A DNA stretch of 64,000 bases from Nothopassalora personata (lineage: Eukaryota > Ascomycota > Dothideomycetes > Mycosphaerellales > Mycosphaerellaceae), in NCBI GenBank assembly GCA_033816765.1, contig CM066289.1, positions 124,001 through 188,000 on the forward strand, given 5' to 3'. The notes below the pieces were generated by a model. It saw nothing but the letters and a program-made list of their open reading frames with translations, was not told the DNA's origin and did not search any database. Positions 2,349-62,675 of the stretch are shown piece after piece. Every line of letters begins with the position of its first letter. Position 1 is the stretch's first letter. Both the position numbers and the translations under genes were made by a program.

Positions 2349-3061
2349 TTGCCCCCCTCCCCCCTTCGCCGCCTTTAGTCCTAGTTCCGCTTAATTGGTA
2401 CCGTCCGGATGTATATTTACGCTAGTGTTCTCTATTATCCCCCCGGAGTCTATTATCCTAGCTATTTTTATAGCTTAGCGCTACTTTCTAATATTACCCT
2501 ATATTGTATAAACTTATTAATAGCGATGCCTATTATTAGGCTCATAATAGGAAGCGCTTAAGGTGCTCTTCCTAATTATCTAGATCCGCCGTCGTTAAGG
2601 CGGAGTATTATTACCTAGGTAAGTATAAGGTTTCCTATTATCTACTAAGTAATAATAGCTATTATTATATATAAATAATAGGAACCTAGAATATATCTTC
2701 CGGCTCTAGTTCTCTTTTTCCTTCTTTCTTTTCCTTATTACCCGCCGTAAGCGTAAGTAGCCTCCTCCCTAGCTTAGCGTCCTTAGCCTTAGGAGACCTA
2801 CGCTTCCGTATCTCTTACCTACTACTTAGGGATCCGACGTTTCTTCCACGGATTCCGATAGATACTAATAGTATACCGTAAGTAGAAATAACTACTACTA
2901 CTATATCTTCTATTAATACTATTAAGTAAGTCTAAATAAATTCTAACGGGGTCTAATATATTCTAACCGAGACGTAGTATAAAATAGCCTAACGCCGTAT
3001 CTACTACGTTCTCTACGCTAGTACTAGCGTAGACTATAGCTCCTAGTATATAAGTACCGGC

Positions 3062-3448
3062 TGTTATTGTCTCGTTCCAGGGCTAGTCTCAAAAGAGAGA
3101 TAAGTTAAGTCACGTAGCGGTATTATTCTTTAGAGAGGCTAAAGCAAGCTAAGCGAAGATAAATGATAGGAATAAGAGTTGTATTCCAATCAGTGAGATA
3201 GTAACATGAGTTGAACGCATTAGAACCATAAGGGTTTCTAGCGTTCCTAAATACAAAGGAGATTCGCGGCGTAGAGCCTATAGCTTAGTATGATCACCTT
3301 GATTAGTCCTACTAAGCATACTGATCACACTAATCAGTCCGTAAAGTGATTAGTGTTACGTGCGTCTAGATGATCAGTATCACGTGTTTCTAAGTAATTA
3401 GTGTTTCGTGTGTCTAGTCGGGGCTGCCGTTTAGACCGAACCGTAACA
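3062..3448 (-). repeat. LTR of A (element 3' LTR)
   Basis: 387 bp; differs from the right LTR mainly by transitions (C/T, G/A), as expected of RIP after insertion. Confidence 0.9.
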
Positions 3449-3466
3449 CTATCCCCCTTCTAGCCT

Positions 3467-3484
3467 AGCTTAGTCCCTTAAGCT
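3467..3484. promoter_or_regulatory. Decayed copy of the conserved inverted repeat (A)
   Basis: AGCTTAGTCCCTTAAGCT, at the same place between polypurine tract and antisense ORF as the perfect repeats in D1, F and D2. The preceding TAGCCTAGCTT block is also shared. The arms have drifted. Confidence 0.5.
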
Positions 3485-3539: not shown

Positions 3540-4097
3540 ATGCCTATCCACCAACGCCCTTCTAGCACCATCCGTCGCCGCCGTCTCTACGAGTTCGTTA
3601 AATCCGCGGGAGAAGTTATAGTTAAGAAATGCTTAACGTGTAAAAAGCATAGTCGCGTATGCAAGGTGCATATTCGTTCCGGGAAGTGTAGTAAGTGTCT
3701 TCGTCGCGGCCAAAGGTACGATGTAAGAGTAACTTAGTCGGAGTTTAAGAGGTTAGTAGAGGAGAAGGCTCGTCTTCGTTAGAAAATCCAGGAGTCTCGG
3801 TCCGCTTAGGAGGAGGCGATACGGGTTCATAAGAAGGCTCTCGAGGATCTAAAGATTGCTCGCGCGCGCGAGGAGCGCTTGCGTTAGTAGATGGATCTAG
3901 TGGATCGTCGTACCGAGGAGGCGATTTCCGTTAAGGAAAGGGAGATCGAGGAGCAGGAGATAGAAGAGGCTTCTTTGCTTCCTTCGGATATCCCTTGTAA
4001 GGGTCTAGTTCTTAACTTGTTACTAGGCACATAGGGTGCTATTAAGGGTCTCGGTAACGAGTTCTAGGAGGTACCCAAACTACTCCCTACTGGTTGA
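3540..4097 (+). pseudogene. Antisense zinc-cluster plus coiled-coil ORF of element A
   Basis: Frame of 186 codons from ATG 3540 to TGA 4095-4097, on the strand opposite to gag-pol and convergent with it. The first 65 codons are open. Residues about 30-60 read KKCLTCKKHSRVC, then KCSKCLRRGQRYD: C-x2-C-x6-C-x8-C-x2-C-x6-(Y for C). This fits the fungal Zn(II)2Cys6 binuclear cluster (C-x2-C-x6-C-x5-12-C-x2-C-x6-8-C), including the basic residues after the first pair. A Glu/Arg/Lys-rich, coiled-coil-like stretch follows, as in dimerising Gal4-type proteins. The few stops are TAG, at positions expected to be Trp or Gln, so the gene was probably whole before RIP. Role inferred: DNA-binding regulator carried by the element. 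A zinc-binding protein of another class is possible. Start supported by three homologues. Confidence 0.6.
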
Positions 4098-4099
4098 CT

Positions 4100-7000
4100 T
4101 ATAGGTCTTTGTTTTTCTTATAATATTCTCGGATCTTTTATTAACAGTTTTATAGGTTCATTTCTAGTTCCTAGGTATTTTCTAATTCGTCGTATCCTTT
4201 CTATTTAACAAGGTATCGCTAACCTTTCTTGTCTAGGATTCTTTCGACTTCGAATTCGTTTTCTACTTCCGGTTCGAAATAGAAGCTCTCCTAGCAGGGT
4301 GTTTCGGCGTCTACGGGTTCCAACTTAGAGATATGGAAGACTAGGTAGATTCTTGCGTCTAGTAGTAGTCGTAGGCGGTAGTTAACTAGTCCTATAACTT
4401 TGTCGATAAAAAATGGTCCGACCTTAACGTAATCTAGTTTCTTAGTCTGTCTTCTTATTCTTAAGTTTTTTGTAAGGAGATAGACCTTATCCCCCTCTTT
4501 TAGCAGAGGTGCTATTTTTCTCGTGTCCTGCCGTTGTTAAGACAGTTTATGTTATGCATCTTCGATCGCCTTACGTGTTTCTTTATGCACTTCCTTAAGA
4601 GTATCCGTCGTTACGATTACTCTTTCGGCTTGTGGGTAGGATCCAGGTGTTCCAAATAGGTTAGGATCTTTGCTAAAGTTCGTATAAAATGGTGTCGTTA
4701 AAGTTGTCTCTAATTTGTAGTTGTTTAGTACAATCTACGCTATTGGCAGTAATGAGACCTAGTTGTCTTGTACATAATTGATGTAGTGTCGTAGGTATTG
4801 TTCTAGCGTTTAATTCATCCTTTCGGTTTGTCCGTCTGTTTCCGGATGATATGCTGTTAACAGCTTATGTTTGATTCCGATCGTTCCTATAAGCGTCTTC
4901 TAGTAGTTTGATGTAAATAGCTTATCTCTGTCCGTTATAAACGCTTAAGGGAATCCGTGGTATCGGATAAGTCTATCTAGTACGAGGTATCCGAGCTACT
5001 CTACATTGTACGTTTCTAATGTAGGAATGGAGTGTGCGTATTTCGTAAGTCTATTAACTATAACTAGTATTATGTCGTATAGTTGTTTCGTAACTTAATC
5101 TCTTAACGGTGGGAGTTTCGTAATAAAGTCTATTGTGACTTCGTCCTATGGTTTCGTCGGTAGTGTCCTGAACTGTAGGTAACAGTATTTTACATGTCTC
5201 GTAGCCTTGTTTCGTTAGCAGTGTACGCATTGTTTAATGTAGCGTAATACCTTAAGTCTCATTTATGGGAATGAGAAGCTGCGCTGTATTAGGTCTATTG
5301 TTTTTGAAGTTCTAGGGTGTCTATAAGTTGATCCGTCGTAATGTTGTCGTATGTATTCTTCTTCTCCATCCTTAGGTACTTGGTATTTTCCTTGCGATAT
5401 AGGGAATTGTTCGTCCCTATCGCCTAATATCCGTACGATGTTGTTAAATTCACTTATGTTAGCACTAAGACTTCCGTCGGGGTTCGTCTTTAATGTCTTA
5501 TGTTACACTAGTTCTTTTTCTTCTATATAGTCGCTTCTTCGGCTTAGCGCGTCGGCGCGGCTATTCTCTTGTCCTAGAGTATATTTAATTTCGAACTTAT
5601 ACTGTCCTAGTAGCTCCGACTAGCGGGCTTACTTCGGGTAAGTTCTTTCGTCGTCGTAAAGTACGTAAGATTCTTATAGTTAGAAAGAATCGTTAACTTC
5701 GGTAGGCCCTCGACATATACTCTCTAATGTTGCATAGCAGTAATAATGGCTAGAAGCTCTTTGTTATAGATGTCGTAGTTCTGTTCCGCTATAGTCATTT
5801 TCCGGGAGTAATAGGCTACTAGGTGTCTCTACCTATCGTGTGTCTATGTTAGACATGCGCCTATTGCTATATTAGACGTATCGGTCTCGATGTAGACTTC
5901 CTTACTACTATCGAATAGTCGAAGCGTAGGGGCTAAAGCGCATTGTTCCTTAAGTTTCTTAAACGCTTTAATCTGTTCCTTTCCCTATTTCTAGGTAACG
6001 TCTTTTCTCGTAAGCATCGTTATTAGTGCTGCTATTTTCGCGTAGTCCTTAATGAATTTCCGGTTGTAGTTCGCTAGTCTAAGGAATGATTGTACGTCCT
6101 TAACTGTTTTTGGTTCTAGCTACTCTCTAATTGACTGTGTCTTCGCAGGGTCGATCGTTATCCCTATGGTGCTAATAATAAAGCCTAAGAATTTAACTTC
6201 TTTCTTGTGGAATTCGCATTTCTCGGGTGCCGTCTTAAATCCTAATTGCGTGAGTCGTTCGAAGACGTCCTAGACTTGTTTTATGTGTTCCTGTAGGGAT
6301 CCTTTTATGTAGACTAGTATGTCGTCTATGTAGGCGATAACGTATACGTCGAGTAGGTCTCTAAGTGTTTCGTTTACAAGGTCCTAGTAGGATGCGGGTG
6401 CGTTAGTTAATCCTATTAGCATAACTAAGAATTCGTAGAGTCCGTATCTTGTTCTAAAAGCGGTTTTCCATTCTTCTCCTTCTACTATTCGTATAGCATA
6501 GAAGGCATCTCGTAGGTTAATCTTCGTGTACTAGTCCGATCCGGTTAATCTATCCTATGCTTCTTCGATGTTAGGTAGCGGGTATCGGTTCTTAATCGTG
6601 ATCTCGTTTAACTTCCTATAGTCTTGTACGAGTCGAAACTTCCCGTTTGCTTTTAGAACGAACATATATAGAGTTCCTGCACTTAAGGTGGATCTTCTTA
6701 TCTATCCTTTAGCTAGCTTCTCCTTTAGCTATTCTCGTAGGGTCTATAGCTCTTTCTTAGACATTTGATATAGGGGTCCCTATAGAGGCTCTTTCCCTAG
6801 CTAAATGTTAATCTTGTAATCCTATAGGCGGTACTTAGGTAAGGCGGTTTTGCCTCTCTCCTCTTTAAAGAGTCGCGACCACTTGCGATACTCCTTAGGA
6901 ATACTCAACTCTAAGATGTTAGTATTCTTCGATAGTGCGTTACTTCTATTACTTCTAGTGACTTCGTAACCCGGCGGCCCTACGCTAGTGTCTATCCCGG

Positions 7001-9280
7001 TCGAAGGTGGTTCTTTTATCCTTCTAGTCGGCGCAAGCTATATCTCGTTTAGCTGTTTCCTTACCTTATCTACTAGTGAACGCTGCTACTACGTAGGCTG
7101 AATGTCGACAACGCAATCGCATTCCCTAAATGTAAGTACTCCTCTTCTCTAGTCGATTACTGGATTGTGCTTTCTTAACTAAGGCATACCTAATACTATG
7201 TTATAACTAGCTATATTAGTGACATCTAAGGTAATATTCTCGTAGTGCTGTTAGATAGCTAGTGGCAATAGTATCGTCTCCTATTCCACGCTAGGTAACG
7301 ATAATCCGTTTACCGCGATTAACTCGTAACCCTATTTCTTCTTTAGGGTAGCTAACCCGTTTCTTCTTGTAAAAGACTCGGAGATAAAATTTCCCGCTAC
7401 TCCTAAGTTGATTATAACACTAGTCTTGTGTCCGTTAACGATTGCTTATGTCTAGAAAACTGTGTTTAATGTCGATGTATAAGCCTAAGTATTGCATAAC
7501 TCCCTCCGGTCGCTTATTCCTAGGGAGCTAATCCTTTTCCCGAATAGTATGTAGTTCGCTATACTTCGTGCCTAGAGGCTTCGGCTAGAACCTGTAGCCC
7601 GTTGCCCTATGTCTACACTTATAGTCTATTGCGTTCCTAGATCTTCTACGTTTCTAAGTAGAGTGCGCGTACGTGTTGCACTATGTTACGTAATTTATTC
7701 GATATAAATGTTCCTAACGGTGTAAGATATCCGGTTCCTATTATTCGACTTCCTATCGGTAGTCGTTCTATAACGGTGGTTGCTAGATTCTCGGTTGTTT
7801 CCATAAGTGGGTATCCCTAGGCCATGCCTCGTAGGGTGTCGAGTGTCTTGTTAAACTCAATGGAATGTAGCTTCCTTCGTCTACCTATCTTAGGTAGGAA
7901 TTCCTCGTGCCTTCTTTATAGGTAGATAATTATGTCGTATAGTTTCTTAGGTGCATCTACCGTAAAGGTAAGTTGTTCGTTGTCGTCGTTAGTGTCGCTC
8001 TCTTCTCCTTCGGAGGAATCTTCTTCGCTTGATTCTTCCGGATCCTATTCTTCCTCGATGGTATCTAGCCCGGTGGTTTCTTAACTTTCTTCCTATAGTT
8101 CTAGTAACTATAATCCGTTCTATCCTGGGTCCTAATTTTCTTTATCGCTTCTATCTTCGTTAAAGTAGGATTCATCGATGTCTACTTCTCTAAGCGTGGC
8201 GTTTTACCTATGCGTCACTCCTAGGGTTCCTCGTGGTTGCTAAGGCTAATACCCTGCGCCCGATTTCGCGGCGTAGTGGATTTGACACGAGTCTTAGTAA
8301 CAGAATCGCTAATGAAGGATTCTATAACTATTTCGAGACTCGGATTCGGTCTCGTAGTCGACTCTTCGTGTTATTATATTAAACTGTCGTAGTTAGTTCT
8401 TCGCATTAAATGGAATAACTACCATTTACTACCTATAGTATCCTCCTCGTCCTTCTAAGGGGTCTAGGAGAGGCGTCGTGCTTCTATTGTTAGCTCTCTC
8501 CTCTACTCTCCGAGTATAGTTGGTATCTCCTCGAGATCTAACGCTACTCTTAGATTTACTAGTTCGGGGTTGCATTATATTGAATTGTTCTACTTTAGAG
8601 TCGTATCTCTTCTCCTAGTGTCGTTCCTAGAGCTAGTTATCGATGTTAATCGACGCCTTTATTAGCTCTTCGAGGTTGGTGATCCGTCCCCCGTGTCTTA
8701 TTAACTCGTCCTTAACGGAGTCTTTAAGTCTACGTCGGAACATAGTCATTAACGCCGTCTAGTCCCATCCGGTAATTTGTCCGTATTCTTCGAATTTGGC
8801 TGTATACTCTGAAGTAGACGTCTTCTGCTTCAGGTGTTAAATGATTCGTATAGCCTATTAGACTTCGTTCGAGGTTCTAAAGATTGATTTTATCTTATCT
8901 TTAAAGAGAGTGTAGCTCCTAAACATTCTAGTAGGGTCTAATCGTCCTATACCTTTAAGGTATTCCTTAAGGTAAGGTTTGATCTAGTTCTGCGCACTTC
9001 CGCGAAGGTACGTAATAGCGAAGATAGTTCTTTTATCGGCATCGACTAGGTTGAACATAAGATATATATCCATCTAATTGATCCAGTCGTCGAACTTAGC
9101 CCTGTCTCTATAGAAGAGGTCTAGCTTAGCAGCCTTAACGTCGTTCTTCCTTAGAGTAGGCTCGTCATCGTCATTAGACTTATCGTCCTTCGTGGTGGTC
9201 TATTGTAGTAGCGCACGGCGGATGCTTCCTGCTTCGCTAGGGGCGGGTGTTCCCCTACTAGCTGCTTGAGTAGCGCTCAT
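4100..9280 (-). pseudogene. gag-pol of element A (gag, protease, RT, RNase H, integrase, chromodomain)
   Basis: Gag begins with ATG at 9280, 17 bp inside the LTR edge (MSATQAASRGTPAPSE...), and contains the retrotransposon capsid pattern (FDDWINQMDIYL, YLRGSAQN). Approximate order on the minus strand: gag 9,280-7,500; retropepsin near 7,440-7,370 (NLGVAGNFIS, with Asn where Asp is expected); RT 6,900-6,000 with AYIDDILVY; RNase H 5,950-5,500, partly frameshifted; integrase 5,400-4,400 with HCKRNK zinc finger, ITDRD and HPETDGQTERMN; chromodomain 4,290-4,155 (ILDKKG..RYLVK). Stops are TAG/TAA of RIP type. Polyprotein of replication and integration, now dead. It ends tail-to-tail with the antisense ORF. 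Confidence 0.8.
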
Positions 9281-9297: not shown

Positions 9298-9684
9298 TGT
9301 TATTGTCTCGTTCTAGGGCTAGTCTTAAAAGAGAGATAAGTCAAGTCACGTAGCGGTATTATTCTTTAGAGAGGCTGAAGCAAGCTAAGCGAAGATAAAT
9401 AATAGGAATAAGAGTTGTATTCCAATTAGTAAGATAGTAACATGAGTTGAACGCATTAGAACTATAAGGGTTTCTAGCGTTCCTAAATACAAAGGAGATT
9501 CGCGGCGTAGAGCCTATAGCTTAGTATGATTACCTTAATTAGTCCTACTGAGCATACTAATTACACTAATTAGTCCGTGAAGTGATTAGTGTCACGTGCG
9601 TCTAGATGATCAGTATCACGTGTTTCTAAGTGATTAGTGTTTCGTGTGTCTAGTCGGGGCTGCCGTTTGGACCGAACCGTAACA
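9298..9684 (-). repeat. LTR of A (element 5' LTR)
   Basis: 387 bp, TGTTATTGTC...CCGTAACA, followed by target duplication CCGGC at 9,685-9,689. Confidence 0.9.
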
Positions 9685-9689
9685 CCGGC

Positions 9690-34457: not shown

Positions 34458-34798
34458 TGTTAGGAACCGCTGTACGTTATCCCAACCGGGCTTAGATCTT
34501 TATAGAGATGTCTCGAACGTTGAGAAGGTAGTAGTCCTAAACAGTATATAGTGTATACTTAAAATAAGTTAAGCACGAGGCTCCTATCTACTCGTGAAGA
34601 AGCGTCGTCTATATAGTGCTATGTCTTGGCGTAACTAATTAGTCGGATTAGTTAATCTATCCTACTCTCTCTACTCTATTATAGAGCACGCAGATTAGAG
34701 AGAGCACTCTACATATCGGATTCTTCCGCTAGTGTGTAGGCATCAATTAGTTAGGCATCGATTAGTTAGCTAGAGCTTCTCCGGATCAATCCGTAACA
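34458..34798 (-). repeat. LTR of F (element 3' LTR)
   Basis: 341 bp; followed by CTATCCCCCC, the complement of the polypurine tract. Confidence 0.9.
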
Positions 34799-34874: not shown

Positions 34875-35489
34875 ATGTCGTCCTCTCGCAAACTATCCTC
34901 TAAGATTAGCTTATCCGTCCGTCGAACCCGCCTTACTAATAAGATCGAGTTACTTAAGGTCGTTATAGTCTAAAAATGCAGTCGCTACGTCGCAAAGGAT
35001 ATCGCCTACCGCGTGCATATCTCATCTAGAAAGTGTAGTGCTTATGTTCGTTCAAACTATAAGGGTTGCAACATTATTATATTGGAAGGCGACTAGTCCC
35101 GCCTACGAAAACAGCGCGCCGCTCTAGAGGAGAAAATGTCGTTACATCTACGTAGAATGCGCGAGTTGCGGGCGACACTCTAGCGCCTCTAAGAGGAAGA
35201 AGCTACCGCGTAGGAAAAGAAGTCCCGCCTTTAGAAGGAGATAGATCTACTCGAGAGCCGTAAGGCCGAGGCGTTGTCCGTCGAGAAGTCCCTTCTCGAG
35301 GAGCAAGAGTCGGTAGAGCCTAGTTGTGCTCCCGTATTACCGGTTCCTATCCTTCCTTAGTCGTCCCTCGAGGAAGTGCCGGATACCTTCTAGTCTAATC
35401 TCTGTTTCGATCTAGAAGCCGTATCGTAAGTTGTTGTCCCGTAGCCTATTCCGTGTCGTCGTGTTAACTTCTATGTCCTAGGTTATTAA
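34875..35489 (+). pseudogene. Antisense zinc-cluster plus coiled-coil ORF of element F
   Basis: Single frame of 205 codons from ATG 34875 to TAA 35487-35489, with internal stops of TAG/TAA type only. The cluster region reads KCSRYVAKDIAYRVH then KCSAYVRSNYKGCN: the C-x2-C-x6-C-x8-C-x2-C-x7-C spacing of a Zn2Cys6-type cluster with three Cys turned into Tyr. A TAG (Trp in the ancestor) precedes SRLRKQ, as in the three homologues. A Glu/Lys/Leu-rich stretch (EEKMSLHLRRMRELRATL; ESRKAEALSVEKSLLEEQ) suggests a coiled coil. Retained although pol is gone. Likely a DNA-binding protein of the element; biochemical role unproven. Confidence 0.55.
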
Positions 35490-36556: not shown

Positions 36557-36897
36557 TGTTAGGAACCGCTGTACGTTATCCTAACCGGGCTTAGATCTTT
36601 GTAGAGATGTCTCGAACGTTAAGAAGGTAGTAGTCCTAAACAGTATATAGTGTATACTCAAAATGAGTTAAGCACGAGGCTCCTATCTACTCGTAAAGAA
36701 GCGTCGTCTATATAGTGCTATGTCTTAGCGTAACTGATTAGTCGGATCAGTTGATCTGTCCTACTCTCTCTACTCTATTACAGAGCACGTAGATTAGAGA
36801 GAGCACTCTGCATATCGGATCCTTCCGCTAGTGTGTAGGCATCGATTAGTTGGGCATCGATTAGTTGGCTGGAGCTTCTCCGGATCGATCTGTAACA
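36557..36897 (-). repeat. LTR of F (element 5' LTR)
   Basis: 341 bp, ends CTGTAACA, then AGGGC duplication. Confidence 0.9.
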
Positions 36898-62120: not shown

Positions 62121-62675
62121 TTATAAATAAATACCCTAATAAGTTTCTACCCCTAGAGACTTGCCCTAGGGCTCCGCCCTAGAAAGCGCCGCCTAGTCGT
62201 TTACGGGCATCTCTAGGATATTAGAGAAGGAAACTAGCGAAGGCAACACCTCTACCCCCGACGCCTACTTAAGAGACGCTAGTTCCTCGCGCGCCTCTTC
62301 CTCCTCGAGCTCCTCTAACTCCTTAGCAACGGCGTCGTTAGTGCGACGCTTAGCTAAGCGTAGCTGTTTCCGAAGACGGATCTTACGTATCTTTAGCCGT
62401 ACCTCCTCCTCTTTAATCCTCTTAAGCTCTAGCTTAAGCTTATCGCGCGAATCGCGAAGACGTTCCTACTCCGGACGAGAAAGATATACGTCGCAATCCT
62501 TATAGCCTTTTTAAATATAGGCCGAACACTTCCTAGACCGAGAACCTACGATATACTTTACTACCGTGCCCGAGGATTAAGACTTCTAACAATTCGTGTA
62601 TAGAGCTATTTTAATACTAGAGATTTTAGTATCTAGAGCGAGTCGTTAACGGCGTTTATAGGAGGAAGAAGACAT
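62121..62675 (-). pseudogene. Antisense zinc-cluster plus coiled-coil ORF of D2
   Basis: 185 codons in one frame from ATG 62,675 to TAA 62,121-62,123, with internal TAG/TAA of RIP type. The cluster region ends RKCSAYI-stop-KGYKDCDV (KC-x2-[C/Y]-x7-C). Then PE-stop-ERLRDSRDKL, KRIKEEEVRLKIRKIRLRK and AVAKELEELEEEEAREELAS, a long charged heptad-like stretch. Length agrees with A (186) and F (205). The same TAG before RLR occurs in all four copies. Confidence 0.6.

Follow-up and report, generated by a model that had tools for sequence, protein, structure and literature searches.

For brtn, an antisense gene of fungal long terminal repeat (LTR) retrotransposons, the source paper is said to be that of Zhao et al. 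(Virology 417:248, 2011), which dealt with Boty-like elements. A gene of comparable siting is considered here: an open reading frame (ORF) found at positions 3540-4097 (plus strand) of a 64,000-nucleotide stretch of the genome of Nothopassalora personata (assembly GCA_033816765.1, contig CM066289.1, positions 124,001 to 188,000; the window in the following), where, within a Ty3/gypsy element running from right to left (element A), it sits between gag-pol and the 3′ LTR. This ORF and its relatives represent a real gene, carried by Ty3/gypsy chromoviruses opposite gag-pol and beside the 3′ LTR.

In the passages available of four papers, brtn is described as an antisense gene of the Boty-like Ty3/gypsy elements of Botrytis cinerea, which also occurs in Sclerotinia, and a Monilinia transcript resembles its product (PMC8365987, PMC4227169, PMC7264820, PMC5987419). 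Like the present ORF, it belongs to an ascomycete Ty3/gypsy element with a chromodomain and is located between pol and the 3′ LTR; those passages, which allow a comparison by description only, mention no zinc cluster, target array or cassette exchange for it. Furthermore, the hosts of brtn are Botrytis and Sclerotinia, whereas the five named relatives of the present ORF that were checked for taxonomy are all Dothideomycetes, and no match named BRTN is found among the public-protein matches listed.

Antisense ORFs are also known from plant Ty3/gypsy elements, i.e. Retand (TRP28), Grande (gene23) and RIRE2 (PMC11963269, PMC7264820; both seen in part). They share with the present ORF the position between pol and the 3′ LTR, the conservation across families and, in the passages seen, a suspected DNA-binding or regulatory role, and some Retand elements are, like the compact elements described below, non-autonomous. 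The Retand protein is, however, a different one (TRP28, PF04195), its lineage is not that of the chromoviruses, and no matched U3 array is described for it in the same passages; PF04195 did not appear in the Pfam scans of the window ORFs, of 26 members, of 3 intact ORFs or of 13 members (the last with 25 of the 30 matched families listed). These precedents correct a first-pass annotation of the window, which knew of no Gypsy gene of this kind. Therefore, an antisense ORF at this place is already known, and what is new is a predicted zinc-cluster regulator which, along with a family-specific U3 array, is exchanged among LTR retrotransposons. A literature search revealed neither a zinc-cluster ORF in antisense position nor array-regulator cassettes for the LTR elements of fungi, most subscription papers, including that on brtn, being outside the search.

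Two more distant systems are of use for comparison. HBZ of human T-cell leukaemia virus type 1 (HTLV-1) is an antisense-encoded nuclear regulator from the 3′ LTR side, with a dimer region of the coiled-coil type; it is a basic leucine zipper protein and not a Zn2Cys6 one, and its virus is a mammalian retrovirus, so that the similarity would be one of logic only. The VANC protein of the Arabidopsis VANDAL elements is not known to be related to that of the present ORF. In the part of the source seen, VANC is a sequence-specific protein encoded by a transposable element (TE), with target motifs that are often tandem repeats and vary between related TEs, but it belongs to a plant DNA transposon and has an anti-silencing function (PMC5735166).

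A conserved antisense gene

The first-pass annotation had claimed antisense frames in four elements of the window (A, F, D1 and D2), and all four do read as frames of one kind. All of them are broken, as would be the case for a chance ORF or an artefact of repeat-induced point mutation (RIP); the probability of such an origin is negligible, and it was rejected on account of the intact copies of 13 families present in the same genome as A, of the homologues (313 public relatives at E<=1e-3) and of the dN/dS ratios given below. The own-genome search with ORF A gave at least 150 scored matches, with 31-100% identity and with some copies free of stops, and searches with three more family members each gave at least the matches listed. 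Among public proteins, ORF A had 94 matches at E<=1e-3, the profile that yielded the 313 (120 of them listed) was built from both of the classes described below, and a class II-led profile had 71. The public relatives are mostly on short contigs, the named ones belonging to eight fungal genera (Sporormia, Bathelium, Cryoendolithus, Cercospora, as C. kikuchii, Hortaea, Elsinoe, Aureobasidium and Cladosporium), and the source names of P0058, P0119 and P0139 start with 'Zn(2)-C6 fungal-t...'. An IMG/VR scan gave 74 pattern matches with no relative among them, and plasmid records no match to the ORF.

The association with pol was assessed starting from pol, with its C-terminal 199 residues as the query, so that elements were not picked via the ORF; the pairing used 98, 42 and 23 rows from the three further-member genome searches and none from the ORF A search. 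A listed ORF match was found within 1.6 kb of 140 of the 150 pol places, in all 140 cases on the opposite strand and 3′ of pol, and where pol had 0-2 stops the partner was present at 82 of 82 places. Direct searches of the ten remaining places revealed a 199-type ORF on the opposite strand in eight, for a total of 148 out of 150; L079 has only a weak 65-residue match, and L073 none in the 1.25 kb read.

The frame is under purifying selection, because dN/dS is 0.04-0.24 in the five measurable pairs: 0.04 for family 237 versus L071 (97% amino acid identity), 0.09 for 207 versus 223, and 0.16, 0.22 and 0.24 in the other three, with dS saturated in two further pairs. Of the six frames of the two closest pairs, the antisense one alone is stop-free in both members, and its pN/pS is the lowest, a result which rules out an overlapping sense gene as the source of the conservation in these pairs. 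The first-pass annotation had reasoned that a spurious frame would lack conserved cysteines or reading frame, or have dN/dS near 1, and the outcome was the opposite. The same ratios, along with the invariant cysteines, contradict the very improbable alternative that the antisense RNA alone matters, through double-stranded RNA or silencing control, the frame being incidental, a possibility that has been proposed for plant antisense ORFs (PMC7264820, seen in part).

Full-length and compact host elements

Two elements with a full coding region, L039 and L041, carry gag with a zinc knuckle followed by protease, reverse transcriptase, RNase H, integrase and chromodomain, i.e. the organization of a Ty3/gypsy chromovirus. 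The LTRs of L039 are 100% identical across 526 bp and its movement was therefore recent; its flanks differ by one base (TTACT/TCACT). L041 (304-7324) is a natural chimera, with the array of family d in the ORF-side LTR and that of family 199 in the other, while R-U5 is 99.5% identical between the two LTRs; its flanks (CGAGG and CGACT) are unequal, without a target-site duplication (TSD), as after recombination between two elements.

Besides these, compact elements of about 2.1-2.4 kb are found (two in L040, and L056-L060), to which element F of the window also belongs. Their coding content is the antisense ORF plus a gag-like frame that has a zinc knuckle, the space left being too small for pol, and the LTRs of those in L040 and L056-L060 are 99.1-100% identical (one element having been read in part). 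In five of them the LTRs are identical, and these were therefore recently mobile. A compact element can borrow pol in trans and still keeps the ORF, an indication that the ORF serves chiefly elements of the same kind.

Several side observations concern the same elements. The gag of L039 (4713-7019) and of L041 (4919-7003) contains a WCCH motif (Pfam PF03716) besides capsid and zinc knuckle, and in L039 (1243-1358) the antisense ORF and pol have 116 nt in common at their 3′ ends, in a tail-to-tail arrangement. In L056 and L059, compact copies lie head to tail and the gag-side boundary precedes both LTRs, neighbouring copies therefore sharing an LTR; further compact pairs are spaced by about 2.1 kb (G000 C5:3760631/3762713, C1:1549729/1551877 and C5:4494756/4496919). 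At G000 C1:5713310-5777016, six mutated pol copies follow one another at intervals of about 10.8 kb; the first three are on one strand and the last three on the opposite one, a pattern like that of a large inverted tandem array.

The predicted protein

Across 24 natural sequences, Cys31, Cys34, Cys41, Cys50 and Cys53 show no variation, and the conservation of Cys60 is 90% or more. Two classes differ in the distance between the second and third cysteine, which is 6 residues in class I and 11-13 in class II. Class I comprises five of the 13 families (a, b, c, d and g), with C-x2-C-x6-C-x8-C-x2-C-x6/7-C, in agreement with the Gal4-type spacing C-x2-C-x6-C-x5-12-C-x2-C-x6-8-C; class II comprises the other eight along with D1 and D2, and departs from that spacing through its longer loop. 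The C-x2-C-x6-C-x8-C-x2-C-x6-Y that had been read in ORF A at first pass was confirmed, the final position being Cys in intact relatives. The single shared kind of ORF proposed at the same time holds for the frames themselves, but A is of class I and D1 and D2 are of class II, and the TAG (ancestral Trp) said to be common to the four copies is not one site: that of A lies three residues before the Trp column of class II (e.g. D2), and A has Phe in this column.

Gal4-type Zn2Cys6 proteins bind DNA, usually at CGG triplets, and regulate transcription. Their likeness to the present protein consists of the class I cysteine spacing, the predicted topology of the cluster, a long helix behind it and an acidic tail, while the differences are the 8 residues between Cys3 and Cys4 of class I, with a conserved VHxxSG motif, the long Cys2-Cys3 loop of class II, and encoding by a retroelement on the antisense strand. 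The AlphaFold2 model of class I has cluster blocks with a predicted local distance difference test (pLDDT) score of 87-92, short helices at 32-37 and 51-56, a long helix at 66-146 and a C-terminal helix at 162-167, whereas that of class II has a single helix at 82-154; in these monomer predictions, the long helices of both exceed pLDDT 90 over most of their length. When the class I model was compared with the PDB by Foldseek, the two matches obtained at E<=10 were both Pho7 Zn2Cys6-DNA complexes (E 0.54 and 0.82), and with VIA seven of the eight entries among the matches listed were Zn2Cys6 proteins, with root-mean-square deviations of 1.6 over 32 residues for LAC9, 1.9 over 34 for GAL4 and 1.9 over 35 for Pho7. 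At the sequence level, a PDB search with the whole-ORF profile gave LAC9 at E 0.79, ranked below coiled-coil matches, and one with the cluster alone no relevant match, while an NCBIfam scan of the 13 aligned members gave just three weak single-member matches to bacterial families. Thus, the class I cluster is predicted to resemble Gal4-type Zn2Cys6 domains.

The C-terminal tail is acidic and rich in Trp and Leu. Its net charge is -6 to -16 in all 13 families, that of the first 70 residues being +4 to +11 (the ORF of family c is cut at residue 205 in this count, and that of family 203 begins at the Met before the cluster). Overall, the conserved cysteines, the low dN/dS and the Zn2Cys6-like class I model support the earlier proposal of an element-encoded antisense zinc-cluster regulator, in which the word regulator would be a matter of anatomy, i.e. 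of predicted fold, long helix, acidic tail and repeat arrays.

U3 repeat arrays and a proposed function

Arrays, tails and motifs were compared in 13 families; L061-L071 were left out of the counts, of the intact loci, L049, L051, L053, L054 and L055 were dropped as duplicates of families present in the set, and L052 served for the LTR of d alone. From the 3′ LTR toward the ORF, the order is a conserved part from R-U5 to a TATA-like box, a hypervariable part, the LTR end, the polypurine tract, a palindrome and the ATG. The hypervariable part of U3 consists of short repeats, direct and inverted, arranged as an array whose motifs vary with the family, and the same array is present in both LTRs of ordinary copies. 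For the 7-mer repeat statistic, none of 300 shuffles reaches the observed value in nine of the 13 families (in b it is due in part to an 80-bp duplication at the LTR end), the numbers for the others being 2 of 300 in 239, 12 in c2, 50 in 224 and 65 in 203; the adjoining backbone segment is non-repetitive in all 13 (the lowest value being 20 of 300, in b). By eye, the motifs were assigned to CTGA[T/G]C (a, 199, 207 and 223), GAGA[T/G]C (d, g, 237 and 224), CAGATC (b and c), CGACC (239 and c2) and GCGA[T/G]C (203), and the core of the repeats is GA[T/G]C, not CGG. CACGTG boxes recur in U3 beside the arrays of a, 199, c, c2, 239 and 203, and are perhaps sites of host basic helix-loop-helix factors.

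In 12 of the 13 families, the antisense ATG is separated from the LTR edge, on its inner side, by 69-91 nt; in 203, the start of which is uncertain, the distance is 155 nt. Such distances suggest that an antisense transcript would start inside the LTR. By the polypurine tract, 17-19 nt from the LTR edge, all 13 families have a perfect palindrome (0.17 expected by shuffling) with arms of 6-9 bp and a loop of 3-6 nt, mostly TCC. Its six different stems are changed on both sides together, and it may be either an RNA hairpin or an operator.

In the sense of gag-pol, the position of the array upstream of the TATA-like box would make it an upstream activating region. The function predicted with the most confidence, although with some reserve, is that of a private, self-regulating transcription activator of the Zn2Cys6 type, acting through the U3 repeats of its own family. 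The ORF would encode a DNA-binding protein, probably dimeric and with an acidic activation tail, which would bind these repeats; in the 5′ LTR, the array upstream of the TATA-like box would drive the genomic RNA, while its counterpart in the 3′ LTR, which precedes the antisense ATG by roughly 70-360 bp, would drive the regulator itself, the outcome being a positive loop private to each family.

Arrays that are hypervariable within the element are also what a VANC-like system would have, in which the protein would bind the family repeats in order to remove host silencing (heterochromatin, methylation or RIP-linked marks) or to keep it from being set up, instead of recruiting the transcription machinery. 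VANC itself is not known to have a Zn2Cys6 cluster or a coiled coil. The logic would be that of Arabidopsis VANDAL elements, where, in the part of the source seen, a TE protein targets variable tandem motifs (PMC5735166), and the RIP-like decay, with stops, of many copies goes in the same direction; still, such an anti-silencing factor is unlikely here, the acidic Trp/Leu tail and the array upstream of the TATA-like box being directly in keeping with activation.

Exchange of arrays and ORFs between backbones

The T-backbone families a, d, 199 and 239 have R-U5 sequences that are 97-100% identical in all six pairs, and the pol C-terminus of a, 199 and 239 is 92-96% identical to that of d. Their arrays are 51-67% identical, against a mean of 51 and a maximum of 59 in 30 comparisons of random DNA by the same measure, and their ORFs 31-42%. 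Eight complete T-backbone copies (four of d, two of 199, one of 239 and one of a, one of the eight seen in part only) are flanked by equal 5-bp sequences, with one and the same array at either end, and are therefore true separate insertions; the d array is present at both ends of complete d copies at full length in L082, L083, L085 and L086 and over 90 nt in L084, while no LTR was found in the stretch of L087 examined. On the N backbone, the 21 pairs have values of 92-100% for R-U5, 53-74% for the arrays and 23-63% for the ORFs. Conversely, 239 and c2, on different backbones (R-U5 59%), have related ORFs (51%) and a common CGACC-type motif, and 207 and 223, with 72% identity in R-U5, have ORFs that are 86% identical and common CTGA[T/G]C repeats. 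Sequence comparison thus indicates that the backbones are stable while both array and ORF are exchanged, jointly so in the 239/c2 and 207/223 groups.

In reverse transcription, the 3′ end of the genomic RNA serves as the template for U3 in each of the two new LTRs. A template switch in this region could therefore exchange the regulator along with both of its target arrays. It is conceivable, though on balance doubtful, that U3 array, edge palindrome and antisense Zn2Cys6-like regulator form a portable regulator-operator cassette, the parts of which would move as a set, so that a single reverse-transcription event would rewire both LTRs; families on the same backbone would thereby be transcriptionally private, like phages with different immunity regions, and compact parasites would carry their own cassette.

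Several observations weigh against the activator and the cassette. Pfam Zn_clus (PF00172), for which a search had been proposed at first pass, has no match in the four window ORFs (E<=1), in 26 members (E<=0.1), in 3 intact ORFs (E<=0.01) or in 13 members (E<=1, among the 25 of 30 matched families listed), which is one more difference from Gal4-type proteins, and filing the ORF as a member of that family was dropped; moreover, the resemblance of class II to Zn2Cys6 is less clear. The motif group matches that of the nearest ORF relative in seven of the 13 families and does not in the other six, and the leader that connects array and ORF is 89% shared between d and 199, though both array and ORF differ. 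Exchange is, therefore, not always as one block, and the shared leader and the disagreement between motif and ORF weaken the case for both mechanism and cassette.

The disagreement in six families would favour a nuclear accessory protein which binds nucleic acid without a role in transcription, e.g. in RNA export, import of the integration complex or targeting of integration, the arrays being read by host factors; the protein of the plant Grande antisense ORF is indeed described, in the passages seen, as nuclear and of unknown role (PMC7264820). Such a function is improbable, as it leaves unexplained the common motif of related ORFs on different backbones (239 and c2; 199, 207 and 223). Different pairs of regulator and array on near-identical backbones also recall phage immunity regions, and the protein could accordingly be an autorepressor that binds the arrays to limit copy number and to exclude relatives, as an immunity repressor does with its operators. 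This possibility is to be regarded as quite unlikely, since the tails are acidic and aromatic in all 13 families, as is typical of activators, and the compact elements keep the gene, for which an own repressor seems a poor strategy.

In the cassette reading, the specificity of the protein may follow a simple residue-motif code. Six families have A in front of the GA[T/G]C core, and their residue four positions beyond Cys5 is Asn; at the same place, the four families with T and the two with CGACC have Gly, and the one with C has Arg. Within the cluster this column alone separates the families by motif; Gly and Asn are common alternatives at a helix cap. Over the whole ORF, label permutation gave two or more separating columns in 200 of 2000 trials, two being observed, and related families are not independent in this comparison, so that the code is a lead only. 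Among the mutated families, those in which both array and cluster could be read fit by eye, namely L061, L063 and L067, which are separate lineages, and L062, L064-L066 and L071, which stand near families of the set of 13; L068 and L069 have no readable cluster and L070 has no LTR end.

The elements of the window

Element A is bounded by a perfect 5-bp TSD, CCGGC, at 3057-3061 on the left and 9685-9689 on the right. On the minus strand, it consists of the 3′ LTR (3062-3448), a gag-pol region with many stops and approximate limits (4100-9280), the domain order of which is taken from its relatives L039 and L041, and the 5′ LTR (9298-9684). The U3 array (3262-3440), of a mutated CTGATCA / CACTAATCA type and a putative set of binding sites, lies between the TATA-like side and the LTR end, its statistic being that of an intact relative. 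It is followed by the polypurine-tract region (3449-3466), from the LTR edge to the palindrome AGCTTA..TAAGCT (3467-3484), the position of which is kept in the 13 families compared. ORF A then starts at an ATG and runs through seven in-frame TAGs as a broken copy of the gene with six-Cys cluster and long helix, the acidic C-terminal tail being present in its intact relatives.

The first-pass annotation placed all four ORFs opposite gag/pol, between the coding end and the 3′ LTR, but F is no full gag-pol element: it is a compact element of 2.4 kb, with its 3′ LTR at 34458-34798 and 5′ LTR at 36557-36897 (both minus strand), TSD AGGGC, and its broken antisense ORF at 34875-35489 (plus strand). 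The other two ORFs, both broken, of class II and on the minus strand, are D1 (641-1024), with Tyr at all six cluster positions, and D2 (62121-62675), of the same type as the intact L047.

Significance

For years, antisense ORFs have been described near the 3′ LTR of Ty3/gypsy elements, in plants as well as in fungi, with no function assigned to them. In the present case, a plausible protein class, a plausible target in the family's own U3 array and natural combinations on one backbone make the function directly testable. If the proposed reading is true, LTR retrotransposons would carry their own transcription factor and exchange it along with its binding sites, which would account for the coexistence of near-identical elements without cross-activation and for the antisense siting of the gene beside the 3′ LTR, and would provide natural protein-site pairs for studies of Zn2Cys6 specificity.
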